From: Lachnospiraceae bacterium MA2020
GTDB taxonomy: Bacteria > Bacillota > Clostridia > Lachnospirales > Lachnospiraceae
DNA: 59,226 bases
Assembly (NCBI GenBank): GCA_000746015.1
Contig: JQKK01000023.1
Location: 1 to 59,226, forward strand
Direction: 5' to 3'
In this document: piece after piece, positions 3,065 through 33,919 of the stretch
Position numbering within the stretch: position 1 is the stretch's first letter
Layout: every line of letters starts with the position of its first letter
Notes under the pieces: generated by a model
The model's database searches: none
The model's input: only the letters and a program-made list of their open reading frames with translations
Told to the model about the DNA's origin: nothing
Program-made: the position numbers and the translations under genes

Positions 3065-3138
3065 TTGACAAGCTAGCCTCAGCTAACTATAATGTTAGTC
3101 GCAGCTAACTTGTATTTTGTCAGTTAGCCAATGGTAAT
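3065..3138 (+). promoter_or_regulatory. Iron-type promoter with three GTTAG-N6-CTAAC boxes
   Basis: A consensus sigma-A promoter is visible: TTGACA (3065-3070), a 17-bp spacer, TATAAT (3088-3093). Palindromic boxes fill it: GCTAGCCTCAGCTAAC (3072-3087) occupies the spacer, GTTAGTCGCAGCTAAC (3094-3109) follows the -10 and covers the transcription start, and the degenerate GTTAGCCAATGGTAAT lies at 3123-3138. A protein bound here would block polymerase. The same box occurs at four other promoters in this replicon, one of them the DtxR operon. Confidence 0.8.
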
Positions 3139-3176
3139 ATTTGTATCAATATATCTTAGTGCGAAGGGAGAGCATT

Positions 3177-3941
3177 ATGAAAAAGAGCATTGCATTATTA
3201 CTAACATTATCCTTGACTGCATCACTTTATGGATGTGGTTCTACAAGCAGCAATCAGCAGCATGCCAAAGCAGCAAATGTAACTTCAACAGAAAGCAGCA
3301 CTTTAGTTGAAGACGCTAGCAATTCCAATTCTGGCCTTTCATCGTTGGAGGGAACATATATTGAGTTGTTTCCTGAATTTATGAGAGAAGAGTACAAAGA
3401 CTGGTGGGTTGAGTGCATAAAAGCATATGAAACAGACGATGAAACTATTGAGAATTACTATAAGATGCTTACAGAAACATATATAGGAAAAATAACCGGA
3501 CAAAAAGCTGTTGATACATATTCTCAGGATTCTTATTTGTTTGATTGTTATTTTGAGAATGACCTAAAAACCATCACAATAAACGGGAACACCATTTCCG
3601 GCAAGGATGCTAACGGGAAAGAAATCTTTAGCCACAGCTATACCTACCTCGAAGATATAAATGGCCTTCATGGTGATTCAGTAATGGACAACTACTTCCA
3701 TGTATATGAAACCAAGGATGAGGGTGCTGGTCAGTTTAAATATTTCGTATTTACAGATGATACTCCTTCCGGTGAATATCACATTGAATTTAGATATGGT
3801 GAAAATCTTGATGATCTGGGTACCTTTATTGATGGAGACTATGCATACTGGATGGCTTCCGGAATACCACAAGATTACGATGAAGAACTTATTCATAACT
3901 GCATAAAATTATTCGTTGATGAAAATGTCGGTGGTAAATAA
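3177..3941 (+). CDS. ZinT/YodA-like metal-binding lipoprotein
   Basis: A 254-aa lipoprotein with signal peptide and lipobox L-Y-G-C19, followed by a low-complexity Ser/Asn linker and a C-terminal lipocalin-like domain. The stretch FKYFVFTDDTPSGEYHIEF, then YG, then YWMASGIP near the C-terminus, resembles the ZinT/AdcA C-terminal domain (in ZinT: HFHI followed by a G-D motif, ending Y-Y-P). Only the last of the classical His ligands is obvious, so metal choice is open. The true start is the ATG at 3177 after AAGGGAG, not the upstream in-frame start at 3141. Control by the GTTAG boxes suggests induction when iron, or the metal sensed by the DtxR protein, is scarce. Confidence 0.7.
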   Translation: MKKSIALLLTLSLTASLYGCGSTSSNQQHAKAANVTSTESSTLVEDASNSNSGLSSLEGTYIELFPEFMREEYKDWWVECIKAYETDDETIENYYKMLTETYIGKITGQKAVDTYSQDSYLFDCYFENDLKTITINGNTISGKDANGKEIFSHSYTYLEDINGLHGDSVMDNYFHVYETKDEGAGQFKYFVFTDDTPSGEYHIEFRYGENLDDLGTFIDGDYAYWMASGIPQDYDEELIHNCIKLFVDENVGGK

Positions 3942-3970
3942 GCTTTTCACAATTCGCAAATAAAAAAGAT

Positions 3971-3999
3971 AGTGTCGTCCTCACGGTGAGGACGACACT
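3971..3999. promoter_or_regulatory. Putative parS site 3 within a two-way terminator
   Basis: The core TCCTCACGGTGAGGA (3978-3992) is extended to a perfect palindrome with 14-bp arms (AGTGTCGTCCTCAC, G, then its complement). It lies between convergent genes with an A-run before and a T-run after, so as RNA it would be a bidirectional intrinsic terminator, and as DNA a ParB site. Confidence 0.8.
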
Positions 4000-4037
4000 T
4001 TTTCATCACTATGGTTTAGAAGTTATTTGTGTAATCT

Positions 4038-4805
4038 TTAACCTAATCCTACATCCAAAGCCATCATTAGTATAAATCCCAGTGCAAAGGAGATTGTTCC
4101 GATATTCGAATGTTCACCCTCCGACATCTCCGGGATAAGTTCCTCTACTACAACGTATATCATGGCTCCTGCTGCAAAACTCAATAGATATGGCATCATT
4201 GGAATAAAAAATCCTGACGCAGCAATAACCAAAAGTGCACCTATGGGTTCAACAATTCCAGACAAAACACCATAAAGGAACGTCTTTCCTTTTGGAACGC
4301 CCTCCCCTAAAAGCGGCATGGAAACAATTGCCCCCTCAGGGAAGTTCTGTATTGCAATACCGATTGCCAGGGCAAGTGCTCCTGTAAAAGAGATTGTGCT
4401 GTTCCCGTAAAGCCAGCCTGCACATACTATTCCAACTGCCATTCCTTCAGGAAGATTATGGAGAGTGACTGCCAGAACAAGCTTTGTTGTTCTCTTTAGC
4501 CCGCTCCTTGGACCTTCCTCATTTTTATCCAGATGCATGTGAGGCGTTATCATATCCATTACCAGAAGGAAAAGCATTCCTATCCCGAACCCAACAGATA
4601 CAGGAAGAAACCCAAGTTTTCCCATGTCCACTGTCTGGTCAAGCGCAGGAAGCAAAAGGCTGAAAAAAGATGCTGACACCATCACTCCCGAAGCAAAGCC
4701 TGTCAGGGCTCGCTGAGTCTTCTGCCCCATCTCTTTTTTAAACAAAAATACACTGGCCGCGCCAAGCGCCGTTCCCAGGAACGGAATGATGATTATATTC
4801 CACAT
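4038..4805 (-). CDS. ZIP family divalent metal transporter
   Basis: A 255-aa integral membrane protein with about eight hydrophobic segments. The two signature metal-site helices are intact: H-N-L-P-E-G-M-A-V-G in TM4 and Q-N-F-P-E-G-A-I-V-S in TM5. The short His-containing loop (PHMHLDKNEEG) between TM3 and TM4 is typical. The family imports Zn2+, Fe2+ or Mn2+ and the bacterial branch has broad specificity. It stands alone, convergent with the ZinT-like lipoprotein. GGAGCTACAAGCT before the ATG supports the start. No GTTAG box is visible upstream. Confidence 0.9.
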   Translation of the reverse strand: MWNIIIIPFLGTALGAASVFLFKKEMGQKTQRALTGFASGVMVSASFFSLLLPALDQTVDMGKLGFLPVSVGFGIGMLFLLVMDMITPHMHLDKNEEGPRSGLKRTTKLVLAVTLHNLPEGMAVGIVCAGWLYGNSTISFTGALALAIGIAIQNFPEGAIVSMPLLGEGVPKGKTFLYGVLSGIVEPIGALLVIAASGFFIPMMPYLLSFAAGAMIYVVVEELIPEMSEGEHSNIGTISFALGFILMMALDVGLG

Positions 4806-4885
4806 AGCTTGTAGCTCCTTTACTTTAGTAATATCTTATTTAAGGCATATCAGACCTACTGCTCTGTCAAAAATTCTTTTTTAAA

Positions 4886-5221
4886 TCAAGAAAAATACTT
4901 CTTCATATTCTTTGCATTTATAACATCATCAATAAACAGTTTTATCGCACAACTTACGGATATTCCACTTCTTTCGCACAGTTCTTTGAACTTTAGCTTT
5001 CTTTCCTTATCAATCCTAAATATTATTACAGTATCCAACTTATTTTTAGAAATATCCTCATATTTTTCCAAATCCAAGTCAATTTCATTTTTTTCAATGC
5101 AATAAGTCATAAAACGTACAAAAGCCTTAGAATATTTAATTCCAACTCTCCTGCACACTTCTATAAAATTCTCTTTCATTTCTCTATTTATCTTTAAGGT
5201 CTGATAAGAATCCTTAGTCAT
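4886..5221 (-). CDS. Tandem ribbon-helix-helix protein 2 of the par operon
   Basis: A 111-aa basic protein that reads as two ribbon-helix-helix units in a row. Unit 1 has the strand YQTLKI, helix A NREMKENFIEVCRR and helix B SKAFVRFMTYCIEKN. Unit 2 has the strand VIIFRI, helix A DKERKLKFKELCERSG and helix B VSCAIKLFIDDVI. One chain could thus mimic an RHH dimer. The start is the ATG at 5221 (MTKDSYQ), preceded by GAGGAAA; the longer frame to 5284 would overlap the upstream gene by 47 bp. It lies 16 bp after that gene and is last in the parA-parB operon. A role in partition or operon autoregulation is inferred. Confidence 0.72.
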   Translation of the reverse strand: MTKDSYQTLKINREMKENFIEVCRRVGIKYSKAFVRFMTYCIEKNEIDLDLEKYEDISKNKLDTVIIFRIDKERKLKFKELCERSGISVSCAIKLFIDDVINAKNMKKYFS

Positions 5222-5237
5222 GCCAAATTTCCTCGAT

Positions 5238-5597
5238 TTATACAGTTTTTTCAAATGAATATGGTAGTTTAGGCCTATGTACAATACAATAAACCATATA
5301 TGCCTTTATCACTCCTGCCATACTTAAGCAAAATTTATCCTCACATATGCTTTGAAACTTATCACGCTTATTTCTAGACATATATAAAGACTTTCTCGCT
5401 TGAGAGTCACTATATTTTATATTATTTTCGATTGACTCTCCTAAGGTAAATGGAATGTTATTATTTTTAATGCATTCATCAACAAAAAGTTCCATAGCAA
5501 AAGTAATTGAAAGCTCCCTTGATTTACAATATATTTTGAAGTCGTCGTATAATGCCTTACTTAACCTTACTCCTATATAATCCGTACTTTTTTCCAT
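5238..5597 (-). CDS. Tandem ribbon-helix-helix protein 1 of the par operon
   Basis: A 119-aa protein with two RHH-like units. Unit 1 (residues 5-45) has the strand YIGVRL, helix A SKALYDDFKIYCKSRE, the L-S turn and helix B ITFAMELFVDECI. Unit 2 (about 70-112) has the strand KSLYMS, helix A RNKRDKFQSICEDKF and helix B MAGVIKAYMVYCI. RHH proteins such as ParG, CopG and Arc bind DNA as dimers through the strand; two units in one polypeptide are unusual. The gene follows parB by 40 bp, and a parS core lies in that gap, overlapping the purine-rich region before its start. It is similar in layout to the next gene, so the pair probably arose by duplication. Confidence 0.72.
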   Translation of the reverse strand: MEKSTDYIGVRLSKALYDDFKIYCKSRELSITFAMELFVDECIKNNNIPFTLGESIENNIKYSDSQARKSLYMSRNKRDKFQSICEDKFCLSMAGVIKAYMVYCIVHRPKLPYSFEKTV

Positions 5598-5612
5598 CTG
5601 TATAAAAAACCT

Positions 5613-5627
5613 TCCTCACCGTGAGGA
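5613..5627. promoter_or_regulatory. Putative parS site 4, inside the par operon
   Basis: Core TCCTCACCGTGAGGA between the parB stop and the first tandem-RHH gene. In the mRNA its GTGAGGA half runs directly into AAGG, the likely Shine-Dalgarno region of the RHH gene, so hairpin formation or ParB binding could both affect RHH expression. Confidence 0.82.
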
Positions 5628-5637
5628 CAAAAAGCTA

Positions 5638-6801
5638 TTAATCCTTTAACGGATTGATTATATTAGCATTAATGCTATCAATAGCATTCCTTGCAATCTC
5701 TATGACTGCCGAAGCATCCTCAAAATCAATCTTTTCATCATGAAACTCATCTAACAACGCTGTAAGTTTTCTTAACTGCTTTATCAGATTGTTGGCATTC
5801 CTTCTGTTATCAGAAGTATCTATACTGTCATTTTCCTCATGCTGATTACTTGCACTATCATCTTCATCGGCAATAGGAGCAGTCTCTCGAGGTATTTCTT
5901 CGTCCTCTTTTTGAAACTCAACAGCTGGACGCTCTTCATAAGATGGCACACTTTCAACTGTAGCACTAGTAACCGTAGGAGCTGTTATATTCATATGAGC
6001 TTTTATAGAGTCCCAGGTATCGTTATTATCCTTAAAGAGCTTAACGATTTTAGGCATTAACGTTCTTGTAATATTAACGTCCTCATTTACTGCATCCATC
6101 ATGATTTCATAAAGTTTTTTCTGGTCTTCTTCAGCAAAAGGAGCACAATAAACAGCTGTAGACAATCCTAACAATTCACTTGAAATCATCTGCTTTATCT
6201 CAGGAATACACTTGCTGAGCTGCTTATATCTATCTGCCTGCTGTACAGATATACCCATTCTCTCAGCAATCTTTTCACGAATATTACCTTCAAACCCAAT
6301 GTCTTTGAGATACTTTTCATGCTCAATATATCTGTTAACCAAAAGAAGAGGATCCTTAGCAGAATCTCTCTGTGAATTAGCCATCAGCACATAATTTTTA
6401 ACATCTTCTTCCGTCTTAAATTTTGACGCATCAACAACAATGCACTTAACCGGCTGCTTACCATCATGTAAAGTGGTCCAGGCCTTAAACCTTCTATGAC
6501 CTGAAAGGATCATATATCTGCCATTACTACATCCATAATTTGTAACTTCAATAGGATCAGTAAAACCATTTTCTCTCATAGATTCCAACAGATCATCTAT
6601 ATGAGAAACATCTTCATTGTTATCACTATATGCATCTATAAGATCTGATGATATAACTTTTATTTCATCTGCTTTAGCCATTATACTTTCTGTAGCCTTT
6701 GCATTTAAAAAAGCATTTCTGCTCTTAGTCTTAAAATTCTTAGACAAAATATCTAACCTCATTCTTTCTGCTGATAAGAAAATATCTTCATTGATAATCA
6801 C
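5638..6801 (-). CDS. parB: Plasmid partition protein ParB
   Basis: A 387-aa centromere-binding protein. The ParB/Srx CTPase domain has the phosphate-contact motif L-S-G-H-R-R-F-K-A around residues 99-107 (G-E-R-R in chromosomal ParB). A helix-turn-helix region follows (IREKIAERMGISVQQADRYK), then an acidic low-complexity linker (about 290-340) and a C-terminal helical dimerisation region. It starts six bases after parA and follows it in one operon. Its likely target is the TCCTCACSGTGAGGA palindrome, which unlike Spo0J parS (TGTTTCACGTGAAACA) is specific to this replicon. The N-terminal 50 residues, which should contact ParA, are basic. Confidence 0.9.
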   Translation of the reverse strand: MIINEDIFLSAERMRLDILSKNFKTKSRNAFLNAKATESIMAKADEIKVISSDLIDAYSDNNEDVSHIDDLLESMRENGFTDPIEVTNYGCSNGRYMILSGHRRFKAWTTLHDGKQPVKCIVVDASKFKTEEDVKNYVLMANSQRDSAKDPLLLVNRYIEHEKYLKDIGFEGNIREKIAERMGISVQQADRYKQLSKCIPEIKQMISSELLGLSTAVYCAPFAEEDQKKLYEIMMDAVNEDVNITRTLMPKIVKLFKDNNDTWDSIKAHMNITAPTVTSATVESVPSYEERPAVEFQKEDEEIPRETAPIADEDDSASNQHEENDSIDTSDNRRNANNLIKQLRKLTALLDEFHDEKIDFEDASAVIEIARNAIDSINANIINPLKD

Positions 6802-6807
6802 TTTTAT

Positions 6808-7620
6808 TTAGTAATCCATTTTTATTCTCTTATCGATTTCTTTTACGATCATTCTATATGCTTCGCTGCCCTTTGAATTTGACTTATAAAAACAAACCGG
6901 TCTTCCAAAATATGTCGACTCAGCAATTGCAGCCTCATAAGGAACAGAGCAGATATATGAATCAAGTTCTGCCATATCCTCTTCAAGAGCTTTATGCATT
7001 CCAAATCTAGAATCCCTTTTAGCCATGAATGAACCAATAACTCTTACCGAAGGATTAACTTCTCTGGCATCTGCCATGTCATTCATGATCTGACTATATC
7101 CAGATGCCGAATAAGCATCCGGTGAAAAAGGTATTAAAGCATAATCAGCCAAATACTTAAAGCAAAAATCATTTATAACCTTAGATGAAGGAGGCATATC
7201 TACTAACACCCAATCATAGCCCCTCTCATTAATATACTCATTAATTCTCTTACCTGCGTTCATTATCTGTTCTTCAGGAATCGCAACAATTCCCTCAGAT
7301 GAATCAATCGCAGCATCACCACACAGAACATCCACACCATAATTCGTGTAATTCCGCAAGCCTTTTCCCTGCCAAAGAACACCACAAACAGCGTCCTCAA
7401 CATCAACGCCATGTAATACATCCATTACTGTTTTGTATGAATCAGCATCATCAACATACATTGTCATTGTACTTGTTGTATTGCATTGGGCATCAAGGTC
7501 TATTGCTAAAACCTTCTGATTCATTTCACCAGCTAAAACACCGGCAATCGAAAACAAAGACGTTGTTTTCCCACACCCGCCTTTTCTGTTTACCAATGCA
7601 ACTTTCTTAATCTTGCTCAT
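6808..7620 (-). CDS. parA: Plasmid partition ATPase ParA
   Basis: A 270-aa Walker ATPase of the ParA/Soj/MinD group. The deviant Walker A motif N-R-K-G-G-C-G-K-T-T-S lies at residues 11-21, followed by A-I-D-L-D-A-Q (Walker A') and V-L-V-D-M-P-P (Walker B). There is no N-terminal DNA-binding domain, so it is the short type-Ib/Soj-like form and probably does not itself repress the operon. It positions replicon copies on the nucleoid with ParB at parS. The ATG is preceded by GGAGGTTTAA. It is the first gene of parA-parB-rhh1-rhh2. Confidence 0.93.
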   Translation of the reverse strand: MSKIKKVALVNRKGGCGKTTSLFSIAGVLAGEMNQKVLAIDLDAQCNTTSTMTMYVDDADSYKTVMDVLHGVDVEDAVCGVLWQGKGLRNYTNYGVDVLCGDAAIDSSEGIVAIPEEQIMNAGKRINEYINERGYDWVLVDMPPSSKVINDFCFKYLADYALIPFSPDAYSASGYSQIMNDMADAREVNPSVRVIGSFMAKRDSRFGMHKALEEDMAELDSYICSVPYEAAIAESTYFGRPVCFYKSNSKGSEAYRMIVKEIDKRIKMDY

Positions 7621-15033: not shown

Positions 15034-16308
15034 TCAAACCCTGTTTTTTACAAATCTTTTTTCAAGCTCATCATAGTCATATGTTCTTTGTTCAAAGTTA
15101 GTAAATGAATCTTCCTTTCCCATCTCAACAGGTACTTCATAATCTTCACGTATTGCCTTTATTATAAAACCAACAACATTTTTAACATGATTGGTCTTTT
15201 TTGCTACTTCATAAGCCTTTTTTACCTTTTCTACATCATATCCGGCTACTTCAGCTATCGTCTTTATATCTGAAGATGGTATTTTTAGCTTTGAAAGTAA
15301 CATGGCAATATCTATAAGAGCCATTGATGGATCTATAACTACATTATCGGATTCCCTCAGCTCTTCTACCTCATTATTATCATTTAAGTAGATTTCATTT
15401 TCCTCAGATACCTGATCTTCCGGTTCAGAAATTACAGCTATTTCCTTATCATCTATATGAAATACGATCTCTTTTACCTTGGCTCCCCTTCCACCTTTAA
15501 TTACATCATAGGTAACTTCCAATGGAGTATATTCATTAACTTCCTTAATAGCCTTATCAAGGATCCTTCTCTTGAAATTACTGAATAGAGGATACTTTAA
15601 TGTATTATTTTCTTTTGCAAGATTTATAATCCTGTCATAATCAGGCTTTTCTTTTCCCAATTCTTTTAATATGCTCGGCGTATCTTCAGGATTCAGTACA
15701 CCAAGCCTATATTGAAACTCAACTAAATTTATCTTCCAGTCTATACTTCCTGATTTTTTTCTTTTAATGGCCCTTCCATAATCCAGCTGTGACTTTGCAA
15801 GCTCATAAAATCTAAATGAATATGCCGATTGCATTTTAGCGGTATCGCGCAGATCAAACGTTGTATAGTTTGATTTCATACCTACCAGATTATCTGTAAG
15901 ATCGCTATTATATCTAACAGTCAGAACACCACTCTTATATTCAGCCGTCTGTATGACATTAACGCCTAAGAATTTTTTCTGCTCTTTATCCTCAATAACG
16001 ATTCTCCAGTCCAGCAATGATCTTTTCTTACCTTTTGGATCCCTTACAGTAGCTTCATACACTTCATTGTACAGAGAATTCACCGTCGCTCTATCGGTAA
16101 ACTTAATCAGATCCTTTATTGGAATTACAGAAACTACACTATTTGTTTTCTCATCTATGTTTGCATACTTTATTGATAATGCAAACAAGCGCAATGACAT
16201 TATTGAAGCTCTGCCCTTTGCATTTATTACCACATTCGATTTTTGGTACTGATATAAAAGATTACTGTCAATAGATAGTAATTCTTTCTTTTCTTTTTTC
16301 TTTCTCAT
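15034..16308 (-). CDS. rep: Rep_3 superfamily replication initiator
   Basis: A 424-aa initiator of the RepE/RepA/Rep_3 family. The N-terminal winged helix starts LLYQYQKSNVVINAKGRAS; the second has YSFRFYELAKSQLDYG, where F-R-x-Y-E-L is the family hallmark, followed by a winged-helix segment LVEFQYRLGV. An acidic linker (about 300-330) and a C-terminal helical extension (residues 330-424) make it longer than typical plasmid Rep_3 proteins (about 250-350 aa). The protein would bind the 22-bp iterons just upstream of its own gene, opening the origin and repressing itself. AGGTAATGAC precedes the ATG. Confidence 0.93.
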   Translation of the reverse strand: MRKKKEKKELLSIDSNLLYQYQKSNVVINAKGRASIMSLRLFALSIKYANIDEKTNSVVSVIPIKDLIKFTDRATVNSLYNEVYEATVRDPKGKKRSLLDWRIVIEDKEQKKFLGVNVIQTAEYKSGVLTVRYNSDLTDNLVGMKSNYTTFDLRDTAKMQSAYSFRFYELAKSQLDYGRAIKRKKSGSIDWKINLVEFQYRLGVLNPEDTPSILKELGKEKPDYDRIINLAKENNTLKYPLFSNFKRRILDKAIKEVNEYTPLEVTYDVIKGGRGAKVKEIVFHIDDKEIAVISEPEDQVSEENEIYLNDNNEVEELRESDNVVIDPSMALIDIAMLLSKLKIPSSDIKTIAEVAGYDVEKVKKAYEVAKKTNHVKNVVGFIIKAIREDYEVPVEMGKEDSFTNFEQRTYDYDELEKRFVKNRV

Positions 16309-16339: not shown

Positions 16340-16874
16340 TTTTACCAGATATGTACGCAAAATAAGTGTTTTTTACCGATAAAGTACACATCTTCATCTA
16401 TTATATAAACTATAAAATCAATAGTCAAACCAATTTTTACCGATGATGTACACATCTTTATCTTATTACCAAAACTGTACATATCTAACTTCAACTATAT
16501 AATTACCACAGAAAATGTTACTTCATTTTTTTACCATAAAAGTACACATCTTTCGAAACGAAAAATAAATTTACGGTTTCTGTACACTTCTTTATTTTTT
16601 ACTTACACCTATAAATCCCATAAATTAGGGGTTTTTAAGCTATTTTTACCGATGATGTACACATATTTATTTTATTACCAAAACTGTACATATCTAGTAC
16701 GGAAACTGTACATATCTTCCGCGATATTTTACCAAAACTGTACACATCTTTCGATGTATTTTTTTACCAAAAGTGTACGCATCTAGTACCGAAAATGTAC
16801 ACATCTAGTACCATAAATGTACACATCTAGTACCGAAAGTGTACACATCTAGTACCATAAATGTACACATCTTT
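16340..16874. repeat. Iteron array and origin of replication (oriV)
   Basis: About fifteen copies of a repeat with consensus TACCNNAANTGTACACATCT lie in the 715-bp gene-free region upstream of rep. The last four begin at 16787, 16809, 16831 and 16853, an exact 22-bp period and two helical turns. Copies further left (near 16370, 16437, 16466, 16531, 16648, 16676, 16699, 16731 and 16765) are more diverged and irregularly spaced. The AT-rich stretch at about 16875-16945 beside the array could be the unwinding element. Together with the adjacent Rep_3 gene this is the origin. I saw no clear DnaA box. Confidence 0.93.
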
Positions 16875-21776: not shown

Positions 21777-21795
21777 GATAATGATAATCATTTTC
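21777..21795. promoter_or_regulatory. Fur-box-like 19-mer
   Basis: GATAATGATAATCATTTTC matches the classical 19-bp Fur consensus GATAATGATAATCATTATC at 18 of 19 positions. It sits just upstream of the flavodoxin -35 and 77 bp from the start of the divergent alarmone synthetase gene, so it could act on either. Confidence 0.72.
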
Positions 21796-21805
21796 AATAT
21801 TACTA

Positions 21806-21857
21806 TTGAATTTCGTTAGGCTAGGTGTTAACATTACAATTGTTAGCAAAAACTAAC
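21806..21857 (+). promoter_or_regulatory. Flavodoxin promoter with GTTAG-type boxes
   Basis: TTGAAT (21806-21811), 17 bp, TAACAT (21829-21834) is the promoter. A degenerate box ending in GTTAAC overlaps the -10, and the good match GTTAGCAAAAACTAAC (21842-21857) covers the expected start site, the same arrangement as at four other promoters here. Confidence 0.78.
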
Positions 21858-21880: not shown

Positions 21881-22312
21881 ATGTCAGATATTAAGATAGT
21901 TTTTTGGAGTGGAACAGGTAACACACAGGCAATGGCTGAAGCTGTAGCAAATGGAGTAAAAGCTGCAGGACAGACACCTAATATGCTTCAGTTTAGCGAT
22001 ATTACAGCTGATGCATTAGCAGCAGATGATCGTTTTGCACTTGGATGCCCTGCAATGGGCGCAGAGCAGCTTGAAGAAGGTGAAGTTGAACCTTTCTTCA
22101 CTGAACTCGAGGGAAAACTTGGCGGAAAGAAAGTTGCCCTTTTTGGTTCATATGGCTGGGGAAGCGGAGAATGGATGGATTCATGGGTTGACAGAGTTAC
22201 TTCTGCCGGTGCTACAGTAGTTACAGGAGCAGGTGTTATGGCAAATAATGCTCCTGATGATGCTGCAATTTCTGAGTGTGAGGAATTGGGCAGATCACTT
22301 GTAAATGCATAA
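21881..22312 (+). CDS. Flavodoxin (short-chain)
   Basis: A 143-aa FMN electron carrier that replaces ferredoxin when iron is limiting. The phosphate-binding loop W-S-G-T-G-N-T-Q is at residues 9-16, the FMN-stacking region is GCPAMGAEQLEEGEVEPFF and the second loop GSYGWGSGEWMDSW. The length is that of short-chain clostridial flavodoxins. AGAAAGGA precedes the ATG. The promoter has both a Fur-like box and GTTAG boxes, matching known iron control of flavodoxin. A DUF3793 gene follows after 3 bp and is surely cotranscribed. Confidence 0.95.
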   Translation: MSDIKIVFWSGTGNTQAMAEAVANGVKAAGQTPNMLQFSDITADALAADDRFALGCPAMGAEQLEEGEVEPFFTELEGKLGGKKVALFGSYGWGSGEWMDSWVDRVTSAGATVVTGAGVMANNAPDDAAISECEELGRSLVNA

Positions 22313-22315: not shown

Positions 22316-22903
22316 ATGAGTAAGGATCTTTATGATGTTATAAATTTTAATGTGTTAAGTCATACATTTATTTATCAGTGTGCTCCTGTTTTAGCTGGTC
22401 TTAAGGTATCCAATTTGCTCATAGTGAAAAAGTCCTATGCTATCCAGGCACAAAACATGATAAATGAATGTGGGCTTGCTGCTTTTGTTCTCTATATTTC
22501 AGAGCAGAAGATCACTTTTCTTGTTTATAATAGTGAAAAACTATCCGCTTACATTAATTCGTCAGAATGTGCTGAATTTATGAAGTTGAATGGTCATTCA
22601 GATCTTTCAATAAAGGCTGTGCTGTATGAAATATCGATAAGATACAGACTACACATGAGGATGTTGGGGAATTTTCCTCACGAGCTTGGAATTATACTAG
22701 GATATCCTATTGAAGATGTTGTGGGTTATATAGAACATGAGGGTAATGATTATCTTTATAATGGATATTGGAAAGTCTATTCAAATGTTGAAGAAACTAA
22801 GGATAGATTCAAGAAATTCGATGAAGCAACAGAGTATATGCTTAGAATGATGCTGAATGGCGAGGATTTAAGCACATTAGCAAAAAAGGTAAAAGTCGCA
22901 TAA
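22316..22903 (+). CDS. DUF3793 family protein cotranscribed with flavodoxin
   Basis: A 195-aa soluble protein with the family core F-P-H-E-L-G-I-I-L-G-Y-P-I-E-D-V-V-G and the later Y-W-K-V-Y-S. DUF3793 genes of Clostridia commonly sit next to flavodoxin or feo genes and are thought to belong to the iron-limitation response; the biochemical role is unknown. It starts three bases after the flavodoxin stop without a strong site of its own, so translation is likely coupled. A terminator follows. Confidence 0.85.
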   Translation: MSKDLYDVINFNVLSHTFIYQCAPVLAGLKVSNLLIVKKSYAIQAQNMINECGLAAFVLYISEQKITFLVYNSEKLSAYINSSECAEFMKLNGHSDLSIKAVLYEISIRYRLHMRMLGNFPHELGIILGYPIEDVVGYIEHEGNDYLYNGYWKVYSNVEETKDRFKKFDEATEYMLRMMLNGEDLSTLAKKVKVA

Positions 22904-23627: not shown

Positions 23628-23718
23628 TTCGCTCTCCAATCTCCATATTTTTGTATAGTAGAGTTTTTAGTATTTTTATGCAGTAGAAAAGCTATGTAAT
23701 GTTTACTTTTAATAACTG

Positions 23719-23814: not shown

Positions 23815-23843
23815 TTGTAAAGTAAGTTAGTTTGTGCTAACAT
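23815..23843 (+). promoter_or_regulatory. GTTAG-box promoter of the FeoB-associated/DtxR operon
   Basis: TTGTAA (23815-23820), 17 bp, TAACAT (23838-23843). The box GTTAGTTTGTGCTAAC (23826-23841) overlaps the spacer and -10. As the operon encodes a DtxR-type repressor, this would be an autoregulatory site. Confidence 0.75.
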
Positions 23844-23874: not shown

Positions 23875-24072
23875 ATGATAGACATTATTATAATCATGGC
23901 ACTTGCTTTAATCTGTACTCTTATAATAAAATACCTTTATAAAGAGCATAAGAGTGGACATTGTATAGGGTGCAGTGCCGGAAAATGCGGCTGTGGCGGT
24001 TCATGTGAGAATGCCAGAAAAGAGATGGAAGCTCTGAAAAAAATACGCGATGTAAATTCAAAAAATAAGTGA
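23875..24072 (+). CDS. FeoB-associated Cys-rich membrane protein
   Basis: A 65-aa protein with one N-terminal membrane helix (residues 2-19) and a Cys-rich tail: C-I-G-C, C-G-C-G-G-S-C. It matches the small family usually encoded after feoA-feoB, whose cysteines may bind iron near the FeoB pore. No feoA or feoB exists on this replicon, so the partner must be chromosomal or the gene has been split off. TTGGAGAAAC precedes the ATG. The regulator gene follows after 30 bp. Confidence 0.88.
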   Translation: MIDIIIIMALALICTLIIKYLYKEHKSGHCIGCSAGKCGCGGSCENARKEMEALKKIRDVNSKNK

Positions 24073-24102: not shown

Positions 24103-24489
24103 TTGTACGAATCTGGAGAAGATTATATTGAAACTATATACAGACTTAAGAGAAAGAATGGATCTGTAAGGTCGATAGATGTAGCTAAAGAGCTTGGATT
24201 TAGCCGTCCTAGTGTAAGCAGGGCTGTAAGTATCTTAAAGAAAGATGGATACATAGTTGTTGATGATACAGGGAATCTTGAGCTGACTGATAAGGGCAAG
24301 AAAAAGGCAACAGGTGTATACGACAGACACAGAACACTTACAAAATTTTTGATAGAAACAGCTGGGGTTTCTGAAAAAACGGCAGAAGCAGATGCCTGTC
24401 GTATTGAACATATCATAAGCGAATCAACCTTCAGAGGAATTAAAAAGTTTATGAAAACCCAGAAAGATGCGGAAAATCAGGCTGATTGA
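24103..24489 (+). CDS. DtxR/MntR-family metal-dependent repressor
   Basis: A 128-aa two-domain regulator. Residues 1-60 form a winged helix with recognition helix F-S-R-P-S-V-S-R-A-V, and residues 65-125 the metal-binding and dimerisation helices with E-T-A-G-V-S-E, D-A-C-R-I-E-H and the H of residue 110 region. Metal-loaded DtxR proteins (Fe2+ or Mn2+) repress uptake and iron-sparing genes. It starts with TTG behind AGGAGGG. Lacking the SH3-like domain, it is the short MntR-like type. It is the most likely reader of the GTTAGYNNNNGCTAAC boxes, one of which is in its own promoter. Confidence 0.9.
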   Translation: MYESGEDYIETIYRLKRKNGSVRSIDVAKELGFSRPSVSRAVSILKKDGYIVVDDTGNLELTDKGKKKATGVYDRHRTLTKFLIETAGVSEKTAEADACRIEHIISESTFRGIKKFMKTQKDAENQAD

Positions 24490-24793: not shown

Positions 24794-26401
24794 TTATTTT
24801 TCCATGTGCTTGATAGAAGCCTCAATGAAACCTCTAAAGAGTGGATGTGGTCTTGTAGGTCTTGACTTGAACTCTGGGTGTGCCTGAGTTGCAATAAACC
24901 AAGGATGATCAGGAAGCTCTATCATCTCAACAATGTGTCCGTCAGGAGACTGTCCTGAGAGCTTCATTCCTGCATTTACAAGATCCTTTCTGTAGTAGTT
25001 ATTTACTTCATATCTATGACGGTGACGCTCATGTATTGTCTCTTCACCATAGAGCTGATAAGCCTTTGAAGTCTTGTCAAGTACACATGGGTATGAGCCA
25101 AGTCTTAATGTTCCGCCGATATCCTCAATACCATCTTTATCAGGCATGATATGAATAAGAGGATGTGATGTCTGTGCATCCTGCTCTGTACTGTTGGCAT
25201 CTCTGTAGCCAAGAACATGCTTTGCATATTCTACTATAGATAACTGCATTCCAAGGCAGATTCCAAAGAATGGAAGGCTGTTTTCTCTTGCATACTGGAT
25301 TGCTGTGAGCATTCCGTCTATTCCGCGGTTTCCAAATCCACCTGGAACAATAAGTCCATCTACATCGCCCAAGAGCTCAGCAACGTTATCAGCTGTGATA
25401 TCTTCTGAAGAGATCCACTTGATATCAGTATCAGCATCATTTGCGATAGCTCCATGACGAAGAGCTTCTACTACGCTTATGTATGCATCGTGTAATGTGA
25501 TGTACTTTCCAACAAGGGCAATACGAACTGTCTTCTTAGGATGAAGAAGCTTATTGACCATGGTAGACCATTCTGTAAGGTCAGGGGTCTTGTTTTCAAG
25601 GTGAAGAGCTTCACATACATCATCTGCAAGATGCTCATTTTCAAGAGCGATAGGAGCAGCATATACTGTTGGAAGATTGAGGTTCTGTATAACGTTCTTT
25701 CTAGGAACATTACAGAAGAGAGCAATCTTATCTCTTACATCTTCATTAAGCTCCTGCTCTGTACGGCAAACTACGATATCAGGCTGGATTCCAAGTCCCA
25801 TAAGGTCACGTACACTTGCCTGGGTTGGCTTGGTCTTAAGCTCCTCAGATGCTGTAAGATAAGGAATAAGTGTTACGTGGATGAGTATGGCATTCTCATG
25901 TCCTACTTCATGCTGGAACTGTCTGATAGACTCTATGAAAGGCTGGCTTTCGATATCTCCGACTGTACCACCTACTTCGATGATAGCTATATGCATATCA
26001 TCAGAAACGTCATTTCTGTAGAAGCGGCTCTTAATTTCGTTTGTGATGTGCGGGATTACCTGTACTGTACCACCGCCGTAATCTCCACGACGCTCCTTTG
26101 AAAGTACAGACCAATATACTTTACCGGTTGTAACATTGGAATTTTTATCAAGACATTCATCTATGAAACGCTCATAGTGTCCAAGATCAAGATCTGTTTC
26201 TGTTCCATCCTCAGTTACGAAAACTTCACCATGCTGAACAGGGTTCATTGTTCCCGGATCGATGTTGATATAAGGATCAAATTTCTGCATAGTTACCTTG
26301 TATCCACGCTCTTTAAGCAATCTTCCTAAAGATGCTGCCGTGATACCTTTTCCAAGACCTGAAACTACGCCACCTGTTACGAATACGTACTTTACTGCCA
26401 T
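24794..26401 (-). CDS. pyrG: CTP synthase
   Basis: A 535-aa enzyme that aminates UTP to CTP with glutamine and ATP, normally essential. The N-terminal synthetase domain has [12 protein letters not shown] and Q-K-F-D-P-Y-I-N. The C-terminal glutamine amidotransferase domain has the oxyanion loop V-P-G-G-F-G-N-R-G, the nucleophile Cys in F-F-G-I-C-L-G-M-Q and the His/Glu pair in THPEF-like AQAHPEF. Full length, no defects. It is transcribed alone from a TTGACT-17-TATAAT promoter through a leader with a terminator-like hairpin. Presence of such a gene supports chromid status. Confidence 0.98.
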
Positions 26402-28838: not shown

Positions 28839-28859
28839 TATATCAAGGAGAAAGAGAAG

Positions 28860-30446
28860 ATGTGTTCTATTATTGGATTTGAAAAAAGAAGTATTGAAGA
28901 AGATAAAGCTCGTAAATGTCTTGAGATAACAACTTCAAGAGGTCCGGATATGACAAGATTTGAGACAGCAGGTGATGGATGGCTCGGATTTAACCGTCTT
29001 GCTATCATGGGACTGTCTGAAATGGGAATGCAGCCATTCCACCAGGGAAATGACATGGTTGTCTGCAATGGTGAGCTTTACGGATTCAGAAAGCAGAGAA
29101 TGAAGCTTGTAGAAGCAGGATATCGTTTTAAGAGTGATTCTGACTGTGAAGTAATTCTTCCAATGTATCATCAGTATGGTACAGCAATGTTTGGCATGTT
29201 GGATGCTGAATTTGCGATGATCATCTACGATAGCCGTACAAACAGCTTCGTTGCTGCAAGAGATCCAATCGGAATACGTCCACTTTTCTATGGCTATCTT
29301 TCTGATGGTTCGATCGTTTTTGCAAGTGAGGCAAAGAACATTGTCAGCATTTGTGATGATGTAAAGCCTTTCCCACCAGGATGCTTCTGGATCGATGGAA
29401 ATTTCCAGAGATATGCTGATCCTGCTGCAGTAACAAACGTACGCTATGATGATGCTGACAAGGCTGCAGAGCATATCAGAAAGTATCTTGTAAGTGGAAT
29501 CGAAAAGAGACTTGATTCTGACGCACCTTTGGGATTTTTGCTTTCAGGCGGACTTGATTCAAGCCTTGTATGTGCGATCGCAGCACGTCTTATGCCAAGA
29601 AAGAAGATCCGCACATTCGCTATCGGAATGGATATAGATGCAATTGACCTTAAGTATGCAAGAGAGGTTGCTGATTATCTTGGTGCTGAGCATACAGAAG
29701 TGATCATCACAAAGGATGATGTTATCAACGCTCTTGAGCCGGTAATACAGGCACTTGGAACCTATGACATAACAACTATCAGAGCAAGTATCGGAATGTA
29801 CCTCGTTTGTAAGTACATTCATGAAAATACAGATATCCGAGTTCTTTTGACAGGTGAAATATCTGATGAGATGTTTGGCTACAAATATACTGATTTTGCA
29901 CCTAATGCAATGGAATTCCAGAAGGAAGCTGAGAAGAGGATCAGAGAGCTTCATTATTACGATGTACTCAGAGCTGACAGATGCATTTCTGTAAACTCAC
30001 TTGAGGCAAGAGTTCCATTTGGTGATCTTGCATTGGTAGAGTATGTAATGAGCCTTGATCCATCTGTTAAGATGAACGTTTACAACAAGGGTAAGTATCT
30101 TCTCAGACATGCATTTGAGAATAGTGACTGGCTTCCTGAGGATATTCTTCAGAGAGAAAAGGCTGCTTTTTCTGATGCAGTAGGACATTCTATGGTAAAT
30201 GACTTGAAGGATTATGCTGAAAAGTATTATACTGACGAAGAGTTTAAAGAAAAAATAGAAAAGTACACCCATGCAAAGCCTTTTACCAAGGAAAGTCTGT
30301 TATATAGAGAAATCTTTGAAAAATACTACAGTGGACTGTCTGAAATGGTACCAGATTTCTGGATGCCTAATAAGACATGGCCAGGCTGTAATGTGGACGA
30401 TCCTTCCGCAAGAGTGCTTTCAAATTACGGTGCCAGTGGAGTTTAA
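28860..30446 (+). CDS. asnB: Asparagine synthetase (glutamine-hydrolysing)
   Basis: A 528-aa enzyme making asparagine from aspartate, ATP and glutamine. Cys2 is the glutaminase nucleophile (M-C-S-I-I-G-F) with R-G-P-D and C-N-G-E-L-Y in the Ntn domain. The ATP pyrophosphatase loop S-G-G-L-D-S-S and downstream G-E-I-S-D-E-M-F-G and EARVPFGD are present. The length is near that of E. coli AsnB. AAGGAGAAAG precedes the ATG, 21 bp after dapL. Aspartate-family amino acid genes are thus grouped. Confidence 0.96.
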   Translation: MCSIIGFEKRSIEEDKARKCLEITTSRGPDMTRFETAGDGWLGFNRLAIMGLSEMGMQPFHQGNDMVVCNGELYGFRKQRMKLVEAGYRFKSDSDCEVILPMYHQYGTAMFGMLDAEFAMIIYDSRTNSFVAARDPIGIRPLFYGYLSDGSIVFASEAKNIVSICDDVKPFPPGCFWIDGNFQRYADPAAVTNVRYDDADKAAEHIRKYLVSGIEKRLDSDAPLGFLLSGGLDSSLVCAIAARLMPRKKIRTFAIGMDIDAIDLKYAREVADYLGAEHTEVIITKDDVINALEPVIQALGTYDITTIRASIGMYLVCKYIHENTDIRVLLTGEISDEMFGYKYTDFAPNAMEFQKEAEKRIRELHYYDVLRADRCISVNSLEARVPFGDLALVEYVMSLDPSVKMNVYNKGKYLLRHAFENSDWLPEDILQREKAAFSDAVGHSMVNDLKDYAEKYYTDEEFKEKIEKYTHAKPFTKESLLYREIFEKYYSGLSEMVPDFWMPNKTWPGCNVDDPSARVLSNYGASGV

Positions 30447-30448
30447 TT

Positions 30449-31750
30449 ATGAATTCAAGTGTAAACCGCCTGTTTGACTTTTTAAGGCATTGTCCAACAT
30501 GTTACCATGTAATTGACCAGATACGTTCTGAAATGGCTCAGAAAGGCTATAAAGAGCTTTTTGAGGCAGATGAGTGGACATTAGAAAGTGGCGGAAAGTA
30601 TTTTGTTGTAAGAAACGAGTCTTCTGTGATCGCATTCAGAATCCCATCAGGTGCTCCTGACGGATTTATGATCACTGCTTCGCACAGCGATTCTCCATCA
30701 TTTAAAATCAAGGAGAATCCTGAGATAGCAGTAGAGAAGGCTTATGTGAAGCTCAATGTTGAGAAGTATGGTGGAATGTTGATGTTCCCATGGTTTGACA
30801 GACCGCTTTCTGTGGCAGGAAGAGTGATCGTCCGTGATGGCGAGTGCGGATTCAACACAAAACTTATCGATATCGATAAGAATCTGTGTATGATACCAAG
30901 TCTTGCAATCCACATGGATAGAAATGTGAATGATGGAAGAGCTCTTAATCCACAGAATGACATGCTTCCAATAATTGGTGATTTTTCTGCAAAGGATACT
31001 TTTGAGGATATCATAGCTGATGCAGCTGATGTCGATAAAAAGGATATAATCGGAAAAGATCTGTTCCTGTACTGTAAAAATGAGCCTTCTGTATGGGGCG
31101 CTAATGATGAATTTATTTCTGCAGGTCATCTTGATGATCTTGAGTGTGTCTTTGGATGCATGAATGGATTCTTTGATGCAGAAGCATCTGATGCAGTTCC
31201 GGTTTTTGCTGTATTTGACAATGAAGAAGTAGGAAGCAGTACAAAGCAGGGTGCTGATTCAACATTCCTTGGCGACACACTTGAAAGAGTGGCAGAAGGT
31301 GTTGGAAAGTCATATAAGCAGATGATAGCTTCAAGCTTTATGGTTTCTGCAGATAATGCACATGCTGTTCATGCAAATTATACTGATAAGGCAGATCCTG
31401 TAAACAGACCATATATGAACGGTGGTATTGTAATAAAGTACAATGCTAATCAGAAATATACAACCGATGCAGTATCACAGGCTGTATTTACACGTATTTG
31501 TGAAATGGCAGAAGTTCCAGTACAGCACTTTACAAATCGTTCGGATATAGCCGGAGGTTCTACACTTGGAAATATCTCAAATACACATGTATCATTAAAT
31601 ACTGTTGATATCGGACTTGCGCAGCTTGCAATGCATTCTCCTTATGAGACTGCAGGTGCTGCTGACGTAGACTATCTTATAAAGGCAATGAGTAAGTTCT
31701 ATTCTCTGTCATTTGTAAATGATGGCTGCGGAAAGTTCCAACTCAAGTAA
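30449..31750 (+). CDS. apeB: M18 family aminopeptidase
   Basis: A 433-aa zinc aminopeptidase of the M18 (aspartyl aminopeptidase) family. Metal ligands are in [23 protein letters not shown] and at the C-terminal H-V-S-L region. It starts two bases after the asnB stop, so translation is coupled. It releases N-terminal Asp/Glu or neutral residues from peptides and may supply aspartate to AsnB and the DAP pathway. A strong terminator follows. Confidence 0.93.
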
Positions 31751-31761
31751 TAAAGACACTA

Positions 31762-31797
31762 AAAAGGGGCTAATCCTAAATATGGGATTAGCCCTTT
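31762..31797. terminator. Two-way terminator after the dapF-apeB operon
   Basis: AAGGGGCTAATCC, 7-8-base loop, GGATTAGCCCTTT with an A-run before and short T-run after, between convergent genes. Confidence 0.9.
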
Positions 31798-31809
31798 GAC
31801 ATGTGAAAA

Positions 31810-32679
31810 TTACTTTGCAAGTCGCTTTTTATCGATATATCCTACGGCAGAAAGAGCAGCTATATTGCCTTCACCTGCAGATTTTATATACTGGTATGGA
31901 AGTCCTACTATATCTCCGCAGGCAAAACATCCATTTATGCTTGTAGCCATGTTTCGGTCAACTACTATATGAGCACCTTCGGTTTTGAGTCCCGGAACGA
32001 GCTGTCCGGGAGATATAGCATCTCTAAGAACAAAGATACCATCTGCTTCATAAGTATTTCCTTCAGCATCAACTACGATGTTCTTGTCACCAACATGTTT
32101 TATTTCAGATGGTCTGCTCTGCACGATCTTTATGCTTTCCGGTAAGTGTGTCTCACCTTTATAAACCTGGAAATAAGTAACGCTGTTGGTTACCTCGCTT
32201 AAAAATCTTGCCTCTTCTTCCTCTTTTTGACTGTATCCTATAACGATTACGTCTTTGCCTCTGTAAAGAGGAGCATCGCAGGTAGCACAGTAGCTGACTC
32301 CGCGGCCTACCAGCTCACTTTCACCATTTATAGGCTTTCCTGCCACAACTCCTGTCGCAAGTATGACAGAATCAGCTTCGATCATATCCTGACCTACCTG
32401 AACAGAGAAATAATCTCCCATTGAATATACAGCAGATACTCTATCTTCATGAATAGAAATATTTAAATTCTCCAGATGCTTTTTTAATGCATTTCCAAAA
32501 TCAGCGCCTGCAATTGAAGGAAGTCCAGGATAATTCTCTATAGTATGTCCCTGAGCTATCTTACTACTCAGATCTTTTGATCCGATAAGCATTATCTTTT
32601 TGTTGCGAATGGTTGCCGTAATTGCTGCAGATACACCTGCAGGTCCGGTACCAATTATGATAATATCGTATCTCTCCAT
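31810..32679 (-). CDS. Thioredoxin reductase-like flavoprotein lacking the NAD(P)H motif
   Basis: A 289-aa protein with the FAD-binding I-G-T-G-P-A-G motif (residues 9-15), the redox-active C-A-T-C at 131-134 and the C-terminal C-G-D. In NADPH-dependent TrxB the second nucleotide site reads GGGDSA followed by an H-R-R motif. Here it is I-G-Y-S-Q-K-E-E-E-E-A (147-157) and the HRR arginines are gone. That pattern is known from clostridial ferredoxin-dependent flavin thioredoxin reductases (FFTR), which take electrons from ferredoxin and not from NADPH. I therefore expect ferredoxin or flavodoxin as donor. GGAGGCGTTT precedes the ATG. Confidence 0.85.
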   Translation of the reverse strand: MERYDIIIIGTGPAGVSAAITATIRNKKIMLIGSKDLSSKIAQGHTIENYPGLPSIAGADFGNALKKHLENLNISIHEDRVSAVYSMGDYFSVQVGQDMIEADSVILATGVVAGKPINGESELVGRGVSYCATCDAPLYRGKDVIVIGYSQKEEEEARFLSEVTNSVTYFQVYKGETHLPESIKIVQSRPSEIKHVGDKNIVVDAEGNTYEADGIFVLRDAISPGQLVPGLKTEGAHIVVDRNMATSINGCFACGDIVGLPYQYIKSAGEGNIAALSAVGYIDKKRLAK

Positions 32680-32828
32680 AAACGCCTCCGTTCAAAAATA
32701 TACAAATTGAAAACGATTGGATTGTATCAAATCGAATTTGTTTTGTCAATAATTTTCTGTAATTAAAACTATTATTGTTGTAAAATATACCTATATACAT
32801 GATTGTACATATTAGAGGGGGAATGTCT

Positions 32829-32927
32829 ATGAATAATCGAAATTTTTTCCAAAAATATAAATTTTTAATATTATATTGCGTGGTAGTACTGTTTTACTAT
32901 GTAGTAAAATACATTATTTTAAAATAA
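32829..32927 (+). CDS. Small hydrophobic peptide, 32 aa
   Basis: A 32-codon ORF behind the strong site AGAGGGGG: MNNRNFFQKYKF, then LILYCVVVLFYYVVKYIIL, a single membrane helix with a basic N-terminus. A TG-TAAAATATACC promoter-like stretch lies about 50 bp upstream. It stands between the divergent thioredoxin reductase-like gene and a GTTAG-box promoter that begins five bases after its stop. Too small for family assignment; it may be a small membrane regulator or a type I toxin-like peptide. Confidence 0.5.
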   Translation: MNNRNFFQKYKFLILYCVVVLFYYVVKYIILK

Positions 32928-32931
32928 TATA

Positions 32932-32985
32932 TTGACAAAGTGTGTTAGCAAGTGGTAACATTACAAGCAGTTAGCAACCACTAAC
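32932..32985 (+). promoter_or_regulatory. GTTAG-box promoter of candidate sRNA 1
   Basis: TTGACA (32932-32937), 18 bp, TAACAT (32956-32961). Boxes GTTAGCAAGTGGTAAC (32944-32959) and GTTAGCAACCACTAAC (32970-32985) cover the spacer/-10 and the start site. Confidence 0.78.
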
Positions 32986-33084
32986 TACAGCAAATACGAC
33001 ATTAGCAATGCACATGTATAATGTTCGTGATTCAGATTCCTCTTACCGACTCGTTACTCATTTATGGAGAGTAACGAGTTTTTA
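32968..33084 (+). ncRNA. Candidate iron-regulated small RNA 1
   Basis: The box-controlled promoter is followed after only about 80 bp by an intrinsic terminator (ACTCGTTACTC at 33049-33059, GAGTAACGAGT at 33069-33079, then T5). No ORF with a ribosome binding site fits between. The predicted RNA is about 115 nt. Just before the terminator stem it has an unpaired pyrimidine stretch ATTCCTCTTACC, complementary to AAGAGG/AGGAA-type Shine-Dalgarno sequences, like the C-rich seeds of iron-sparing RNAs (FsrA, IsrR). The alternative is a leader of the ECF gene at 33208 ended by an attenuator. Confidence 0.6.
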
Positions 33085-33207
33085 CTGTTTAAAAATAATC
33101 TGGATATAAAAAATAAATTAAAACTGGCATTTTTAATATATCCAGATAAGTGATATATTGTCTTATCAAGAAAGATAATACTAAAAGCATACGGGAGTGG
33201 AGGAATT

Positions 33208-33795
33208 ATGAAAAACGAAAAGATCACTAAAATTAGCTATGCCGGTCTTATGGCAGCTCTTTGCTTTGTTGGTTATGAGCTTTTCCCTGCAATTAATGCA
33301 TCAGGCACAAAGGTTCATATTGGTAATGCTTTTGTTGTACTTGGCGCTTTATTGCTTGGAGGACTTTATGGTGGACTTGCCGGAGCAGTAGGACTTTCAA
33401 TTGCAGATATTGTTTCAGGATATGCAGCTTCAGCGCCAAGAACGTTCATCTGCAAGCTTGTGATAGGGCTTATAGTAGGTCTTGTGGCTAATAAAATTGC
33501 AAATAATTCAAATGACAATCAAAAGGGATATGTGCTTAAATGGTCAGCTATTGCAGCTTTTGCGGGACTTGGATTTAACTGCATATTCGAGCCTTCATTA
33601 AAATATTTATGGTATACCATACTTATTCCAAATTCAGAAAAGGCCGCTTCTGCGATCAATGCTCTTGTGGCTGTTACAACATATGCTACTATAATCAATG
33701 CAGTTATAAATTCAGTTATCGCTATAGTTCTTTATAATGCACTCAGACCGGCGTTGTTCAAGGCTAATATTCTACCGGAATCACTGCAGCATTAA
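33208..33795 (+). CDS. ECF transporter S component
   Basis: A 195-aa membrane protein with about six helices and the S-component pattern: N-terminal A-L-M-A-A-L-C-F-V-like segment, V-H-I-G-N-A-F-V-V-L-G-A-L-L-L-G-G-L-Y-G-G (substrate-site loop) and F-I-C-K-L-V-I-G. It would bind a vitamin or precursor outside and dock on the shared EcfAAT module, which is not encoded here and must be chromosomal. The subfamily (near ECF-ribofla_trS/DUF1393) does not tell the ligand. GGAGG precedes the ATG. A hairpin (CTGGATATA...TATATCCAG, about 33099-33148) lies upstream; I recognise no riboswitch class in it. Confidence 0.85.
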   Translation: MKNEKITKISYAGLMAALCFVGYELFPAINASGTKVHIGNAFVVLGALLLGGLYGGLAGAVGLSIADIVSGYAASAPRTFICKLVIGLIVGLVANKIANNSNDNQKGYVLKWSAIAAFAGLGFNCIFEPSLKYLWYTILIPNSEKAASAINALVAVTTYATIINAVINSVIAIVLYNALRPALFKANILPESLQH

Positions 33796-33868
33796 CTAAT
33801 TCTTATGATAATAAATAGCCAGAAACAGATTGTACTGATAAAAATACAATTTATTTCTGGCTATTATA

Positions 33869-33919
33869 TTGCGTTTTTTGTTAGCATGTGCTAATATTAC
33901 ATCGTTAGCAAAAGCTAAC
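33869..33919 (+). promoter_or_regulatory. GTTAG-box promoter of candidate sRNA 2
   Basis: TTGCGT (33869-33874), 17 bp, TAATAT (33892-33897). Boxes GTTAGCATGTGCTAAT (33880-33895) and the perfect palindrome-type GTTAGCAAAAGCTAAC (33904-33919) cover spacer/-10 and start site, as at the first sRNA. Confidence 0.8.

Follow-up and report, generated by a model that had tools for sequence, protein, structure and literature searches.

Introduction

RyhB-like RNAs are trans-acting small RNAs (sRNAs) that spare iron. Two predicted sRNAs, here called sRNA1 and sRNA2, lie on a contig of Lachnospiraceae bacterium MA2020 (JQKK01000023.1, 59,226 nt, which in its full length is called the window; host genome 3.72 Mb) that also encodes a metalloregulator of the DtxR/IdeR type, and the closest described systems are used here for comparison. 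By regulator the nearest is MrsI of Mycobacterium tuberculosis, described as an iron-starvation sRNA with an IdeR box in the promoter and a short seed, which lowers iron-protein transcripts (PMC8628891). By pairing the nearest are IsrR and FsrA. IsrR of staphylococci is described as iron-repressed, with two regulator boxes and single-stranded C-rich stretches that pair at the Shine-Dalgarno sequence (PMC9410917), and FsrA of Bacillus subtilis as Fur-regulated and iron-sparing, with a C-rich motif that binds the Shine-Dalgarno sequence (PMC9410917, PMC9294342). In Staphylococcus aureus the sRNA RsaC is under the DtxR-superfamily regulator MntR but is manganese-responsive, and a table in a 2022 review has 'none reported' as the sRNA for iron-DtxR, a table that omits MrsI (PMC9294342).

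We propose, with a probability of roughly 0.7, that the window is a plasmid carrying the cell's DtxR/IdeR iron regulator and a part of its regulon, and that the sRNAs block the translation of iron proteins at low iron. In the mechanism that we infer, iron-bound DtxR would sit on GTTAGCNNNNGCTAAC boxes covering the spacer, the -10 element and the start, and transcription would be blocked. At low iron DtxR would leave the boxes, and the two short RNAs would be made along with more DtxR, flavodoxin, the Feo-linked proteins and an uncharacterised lipoprotein. The RNAs would expose a CU-rich stretch (AUUUCUCCUA in sRNA2, GAUUCCUCUUA in sRNA1) that could pair with the Shine-Dalgarno sequence of iron-protein mRNAs, so that their translation is blocked and iron is saved.

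This logic, by analogy, is RyhB-like. MrsI resembles the two RNAs in its promoter with a box for a DtxR-superfamily regulator (IdeR), its short seed and its iron-sparing role, but it is one chromosomal RNA of ~100 nt from Actinobacteria with a six-nt seed (PMC8628891), whereas sRNA1 and sRNA2 have two boxes per promoter, clostridial hosts, an anti-Shine-Dalgarno seed and a plasmid location. The predicted targets of IsrR (MiaB, GltB2 and CitB among others) resemble proteins in the target set of sRNA2 described below, but IsrR is Fur regulated and has three C-rich regions and three stem-loops (PMC9410917). What appears to be new here, judging from the sequence, is the use of DtxR instead of Fur, the twin boxes, the clostridial hosts, an RNA absent from Rfam and the plasmid location. 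FsrA is also unlike sRNA2 in its Fur control and its helpers FbpA, FbpB and FbpC; homology with it was compared through Rfam only. No report of a DtxR-controlled sRNA system in these bacteria was found in the open-access literature searched.

Promoter boxes and the two RNA units

In the window the palindrome GTTAGYNNNNGCTAAC is matched exactly at 5 places (6 strand-matches), as against 0 in 100 dinucleotide shuffles, which confirms the shared palindrome that a preliminary description of this DNA had pointed out. Allowing 1 mismatch raises this to 16 strand-matches at 8 places, whereas the shuffles average 0.24 and never exceed 3. At up to 3 mismatches the 43 matches in the window are fewer than the shuffle mean of 61; therefore only the near-exact boxes are meaningful and the relaxed matching was discarded as noise. 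Across the 3.72-Mb genome there are 9 places with the exact box, and 5 of these 9 are within the 59-kb contig.

The geometry claimed earlier, with one box in the spacer up to the -10 element and the other 22-26 nt away, holds at three clear promoters. Here the -35 element is TTGACA or TTGCGT, box 1 fills the spacer of 17-18 nt up to or into the -10 element (TATAAT, TAACAT or TAATAT), and box 2 starts 22-26 nt after box 1. All five promoters of the window are on the forward strand. The sRNA1 promoter (32932-32985) has TTGACA at 32932-32937, a box at 32944-32959, TAACAT at 32956-32961 and a second box at 32970-32985. The sRNA2 promoter (33869-33919) has TTGCGT at 33869-33874, a box at 33880-33895, TAATAT at 33892-33897 and a box at 33904-33919 at the likely start. 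The third promoter (3065-3138) precedes the lipoprotein gene, with TTGACA at 3065-3070, boxes at 3072-3087 and 3094-3109 around TATAAT at 3088-3093, and a weaker box at 3123-3138 (box scores 14.7, 17.1 and 12.6 for 3072, 3094 and 3123). Thus 3 of the 5 promoters have two clear boxes with at most 1 mismatch (3072/3094, 32944/32970 and 33880/33904). The flavodoxin promoter (21777-21857) has a box at 21842-21857 and, read by eye, a degenerate box 1 at 21815-21832 over the -10 element; in its counterpart in a relative (G023) both boxes are good and stand 22 nt from each other. The promoter of the operon for the FeoB-associated protein and DtxR has a single box (23826-23841) and a 2-mismatch site at 23708. 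On these counts the earlier wording that a second box is mostly present is a fair one.

The main result concerns the two units without an open reading frame (ORF). In each of them a promoter with two boxes is predicted to drive a short RNA, in which a CU-rich anti-Shine-Dalgarno stretch is followed by a terminator-like hairpin. sRNA2 (33902-33988, forward strand, about 85 nt, fold z -6.3) has the stretch AUUUCUCCUA at 33937-33946 and a terminator hairpin at 33953-33983, which the terminator scan also lists. sRNA1 (32968-33086, forward strand, about 120 nt, fold z -3.1) has a hairpin at 32997-33027, an exposed GAUUCCUCUUA at ~33035-33045 and a terminator-like hairpin at 33049-33079 followed by a T run; this hairpin is missing from the terminator-scan list because of its loop of 9. 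When the Rfam 15 covariance models were run over 32800-34120 no family was found, the single match being at chance level (MIR8562, E 0.68).

Conservation and breadth

Copies of sRNA2 were found by blastn in 15 of the 48 genus genomes (own included), and one more genome (G002) was added by an RNA model, making 16 of 48. Two boxes are present at all 15 blastn-found copies, which is not independent evidence because the blastn query contained the boxes. Covariation is seen at 8 of the 11 pairs of the hairpin, and AUUUCUCCUA is unvarying in the 15 blastn-found copies, the model-found copy in G002 ending in AUUUCUCCUU. An RNA-only model of sRNA2, with the boxes left out, was run over 299 family genomes, of which few (two) belong to the genus, and gave 7 non-self matches at E <=0.01. 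With this model the boxes are in place at G002 and at the best match outside the genus (L081); L081 and L083 are the 2 of the 7 matches that have two boxes in place. A DtxR relative is present in each of the 16 genomes that have sRNA2. The sRNA1 relatives in G022 and G023 have the same kind of promoter with boxes and lie about 0.2 kb from sRNA2.

To see further afield, one pattern, box-AT-box-TCTCCT, was scanned over 84,980 species genomes and found loci in Butyrivibrio and further Firmicutes, 53 in all. The hosts are Butyrivibrio (including B. proteoclasticus P18 and B. hungatei), Lachnospiraceae NK4A144, MC2017, KH1P17 and AC3007, and further Oscillospiraceae and Enterenecus metagenome-assembled genomes (MAGs), an Erysipelotrichaceae MAG, Beduini and a Clostridia MAG. 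A -35-like element, which is no part of the pattern, is present at 53 of 53 loci compared to 46 of 1060 random places. Also outside the pattern, the outer G of both boxes and the inner G of box 1 are found at 53 of 53. A downstream hairpin of <=-10 kcal/mol follows at 50 of 53 loci, which by itself is weak evidence because 106 of 265 random places have one too. The three loci below the threshold, where the RNA is least certain, are L105 in the Erysipelotrichaceae MAG (-9.9), L112 in Beduini (-7.2) and L123 in the Clostridia MAG (-3.5). dtxR, flavodoxin or DUF3793 genes are within the same stretch (up to 8 kb) at 16 of the 53 loci, and dtxR itself at 9.

The Butyrivibrio RNAs have another flank than sRNA2. 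Twenty-six Butyrivibrio-type RNAs were picked by sequence (CTCCTAC and a nearby motif, which are hence fixed by construction) and 24 of them were aligned, leaving out two near-copies of L093. In the terminator stem both sides have changed at 5 of 7 pairs. In the small hairpin that precedes the CU stretch of these 24 RNAs no pair was found with changes on both sides. It may be noted that a single-stranded motif of the terminator loop, UCNUGCCAA, is conserved in 24 of the 24 (L089 positions 68-76) and is perhaps a second interaction site; the corresponding loop of sRNA2 in the window is AGAGCCA (33965-33971). Also, the RNA form of Oscillospiraceae and Enterenecus (L094, L100, L102, L110, L116 and L135) has a near-invariant CCTCCAATGTAATCTCCTTCCATGTTTTGAACCAGGG stretch.

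Candidate targets of sRNA2

For sRNA2 only, the 9-nt complement AGGAGAAAT was searched just before ATG in five genomes (own, G001, G004, G023 and G030) along with a permuted control, AGGAGAATA. There were 131 matches compared to 91 for the control (127 and 88 places after merging overlaps), with 93 and 70 ORFs of >=60 aa that fall into 65 and 56 clusters; both sets probably include some ORFs that are no genes. Iron proteins make up 13 of the 65 target clusters compared to 1 of the 56 control clusters (Fisher p = 0.0013), with 30 of the 121 cluster representatives scanned against Pfam and the remainder read by eye. These 13 are the aconitase/LeuC family, Fe-ADH, FeFe-hydrogenase, NifH, hybrid-cluster protein, rubrerythrin, MiaB, Fer2 (2Fe-2S), Fer4 (4Fe-4S), GltD-like, GltB, PurF and DHODB-type proteins. 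On adding C_GCAxxG and a Cys-rich flavoprotein to make 15 iron clusters, the 9-mer is kept in at least 2 genomes in 8 of the 15 compared to 10 of 49 others, as raw counts. The base following the 9-mer is C in 27 of 89 target ORFs and 9 of 70 control ORFs, and CT follows in 10 and 5, after leaving four identical transposon genes out of the target set; this is only suggestive of a pairing longer than the 9-mer. In G023, four identical transposase-like genes (L259, L261, L265 and L275) have a Shine-Dalgarno sequence, AGGAGAAATCTGCATG, that complements sRNA2 past the core.

Regulator and boxed genes

The regulator (24103-24489, forward strand, 128 aa) has both the N-terminal DNA-binding and the C-terminal metal-binding/dimerisation domain above the Pfam cut-off (PF02742, 6.5e-17; PF01325, 4.2e-12), and its best solved relative is M. 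tuberculosis IdeR (PDB 1b1b), so that its earlier naming as a DtxR repressor is borne out. No other protein of the host genome matches the DtxR N-terminal domain above the cut-off, and a DtxR match is found in 39 of the 48 genus genomes (own included). At the position of EACRWEH in IdeR it has DACRIEH, whereby the Cys of Cys-Arg-x-Glu-His is kept. The boxes thus far described fit a repressor of this type encoded beside them. Thirty returned dtxR loci were scanned for boxes: 7 of the 11 orthologues with >70% identity (own included) have a box 257-295 nt before dtxR, and in the 19 remoter loci no box with <=1 mismatch was found on the stretch examined.

Upstream of dtxR, on the same strand, is the gene for a FeoB-associated Cys-rich membrane protein (23875-24072), whose PF12669 match (E 2e-4, 22 bits) is below the cut-off of 27. 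The flavodoxin promoter is followed by a short flavodoxin (21881-22312, forward strand; Pfam Flavodoxin_1 2.9e-16, TIGR01753 above cut-off) and a DUF3793 protein (22316-22903, forward strand; PF12672 1.3e-49). The gene at 3177-3941 (forward strand) encodes a 254-aa lipoprotein, judged by eye, of an uncharacterised family. It had been called ZinT-like, a label that we drop since no ZinT match was found in Pfam (E to 0.1), NCBIfam (E to 0.01) or PDB sequences, where one irrelevant match was seen (E 0.14).

Elsewhere in the host genome a box lies between feoA (assigned by eye) and feoB at C17:54046. The expectation that feo promoters should score therefore came true at this one locus and failed at a second feoB (C7), where no box was found. 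Boxes also precede the gene of a Cys-rich protein of 122 aa, part of which resembles a heavy-metal domain (C28), and a methyltransferase-like gene (C21) and lie upstream of a 125-aa ORF (C23), all with family matches below cut-off. Further 1-mismatch boxes are before a gene on C1 and on C9, and a gene follows the one on C14. Those on C16, C5, C2 and at C4:19259 were set aside as having no promoter-like context by eye. A perfect box at C4:174089-174104 is 5′ of a gene reading as enolase, where the usual promoter geometry was not seen by eye.

The replicon

The first and last 95 bases of the contig are identical. A Rep3 replication initiator is encoded on the reverse strand at 15034-16308 (Pfam Rep3_N 2.4e-17, Rep3_C 8.4e-14), and four iteron-like 60-nt repeats, with no strand assigned, adjoin it at 16364-16696. 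Because of the terminal overlap and the initiator beside the repeats, we regard the window as a Rep3 plasmid, circular and about 59.13 kb (59,131 bp) in size, with circularity resting on the overlap; the regulon had been called replicon-borne, and this reading is strengthened. In G023 (3 contigs) a 43.9-kb contig has dtxR, flavodoxin/DUF3793 and both RNAs, each boxed; an end overlap was looked for on this contig and none was found. CTP synthase and DXP-synthase genes are chromosomal as a rule. The window has a gene reading as CTP synthase (24794-26401), whose counterpart on the G023 replicon is 92% identical in protein, and a DXP-synthase-like gene (51571-53331). At 39464-42082 a YacP-like NYN domain is fused to an EF-G-type GTPase.

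Weighing the explanations

With the DtxR domains, the plasmid and one boxed feo locus in hand, the iron/DtxR regulon of the preliminary description is supported. Several points nevertheless weigh against the reading that we propose. If SufB is counted as an iron protein and PurF is dropped, the enrichment falls to 12 of 65 compared to 2 of 56 (p = 0.0095), and PurF and GltB were counted as iron proteins on general biochemical grounds. The iron calls were non-blind, with Pfam run on 20 of the 65 target representatives (picked as iron-looking) and 10 of the 56 control ones. Cysteine measures that are free of annotation gave no significant separation of targets from controls (p 0.10, 0.065 and 0.21). 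Not only the blastn query but also the 53-locus pattern included the boxes, so that these are not independent there. Five of the 7 non-self matches of the RNA-only model lack boxes, including a match at E 7.8e-5; we took these five (L082, L084, L085, L086 and L087) as chance for this lack. Also, sRNA2 was not found in 23 of the 39 genus genomes that have a DtxR relative (many being incomplete and the model run on two), sRNA1 has only the 2 relatives, and the second feoB is unboxed. Lastly, the regulator has Asp where DtxR/IdeR have Met. The iron ligands of IdeR/DtxR are Met10, Cys102, Glu105 and His106, and MntR has Asp at the Met10 position.

This last replacement would suit a manganese regulon of the MntR type, in which the RNAs would serve manganese economy like RsaC of S. 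aureus, and the NCBIfam models nearest by score are those of MntR, though at 94 bits compared to a cut-off of 153. Such a regulon is unlikely in our view, since the best solved relatives are IdeR/DtxR, the Cys is at the iron-type position, the boxes are shared with feoB, FeoB-associated and flavodoxin genes, and iron proteins are over-represented among the complementary mRNAs; iron rather than manganese is thus the probable metal. More doubtful to decide is a DtxR iron regulon whose RNAs do not pair with iron mRNAs but act elsewhere, as sponges or as leader fragments, the enrichment being an artefact of annotation. The weak annotation-free measures would agree with this, AGGAGA is an ordinary Shine-Dalgarno sequence, and the conserved terminator loop points to another interaction site. 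Against it stand the recurrence of the 9-mer among iron clusters and the unvarying AUUUCUCCUA of the blastn copies, in spite of the AUUUCUCCUU of G002, and we give it a minor though real chance. Fur instead of DtxR may be thought of as the main iron regulator, with the GTTAGC palindromes serving another role. Next to DtxR-type boxes there are indeed sequences which by eye resemble the Fur-box consensus, namely GATAATGATAATCATTTTC at 21777-21795 before the flavodoxin gene and others upstream of the sRNA boxes at the sRNA2 relatives L068, L073 and L078. But the palindromes have a fixed place between the -35 element and the start in 53 of 53 loci, dtxR is on the same stretch in 9, and the Fur-like sites are at few loci, noticed by eye only and not scanned for. 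We hold Fur as the main regulator to be very unlikely; a double iron control by Fur and DtxR is possible. Least credible of all is that the units encode very short iron-regulated peptides. By our reading a frame opening with ATG (MHMYNVRDSDSSY...) extends along sRNA1 of the window, with a like start in G022, but the stretch that the two share differs in four codons, each time with a change of amino acid. This ATG has no preceding Shine-Dalgarno sequence, and in sRNA2 of the window no ATG precedes the terminator hairpin, which moreover covaries. The idea of a peptide in sRNA1 was dropped.

Implications

To our knowledge, little is known of how obligate anaerobes rich in Fe-S proteins, such as rumen Butyrivibrio and its kin and gut Clostridia, ration iron. 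An sRNA that is conserved and recognisable and has a strict promoter signature opens a direct way of testing this, and the box-box-CUCCU signature picks out such RNAs from sequence alone. We lean slightly towards the wider view that an unnamed family of DtxR-controlled anti-Shine-Dalgarno sRNAs may serve Clostridia of the gut and rumen (Lachnospiraceae, Oscillospiraceae and relatives) as a main means of sparing iron, and that the regulator and the sRNAs of one genus share a plasmid, which would set the iron economy of the chromosome. If this is true, iron sparing by anti-Shine-Dalgarno sRNAs would have evolved under DtxR as well as under Fur, and a plasmid could own the iron switch of its host.

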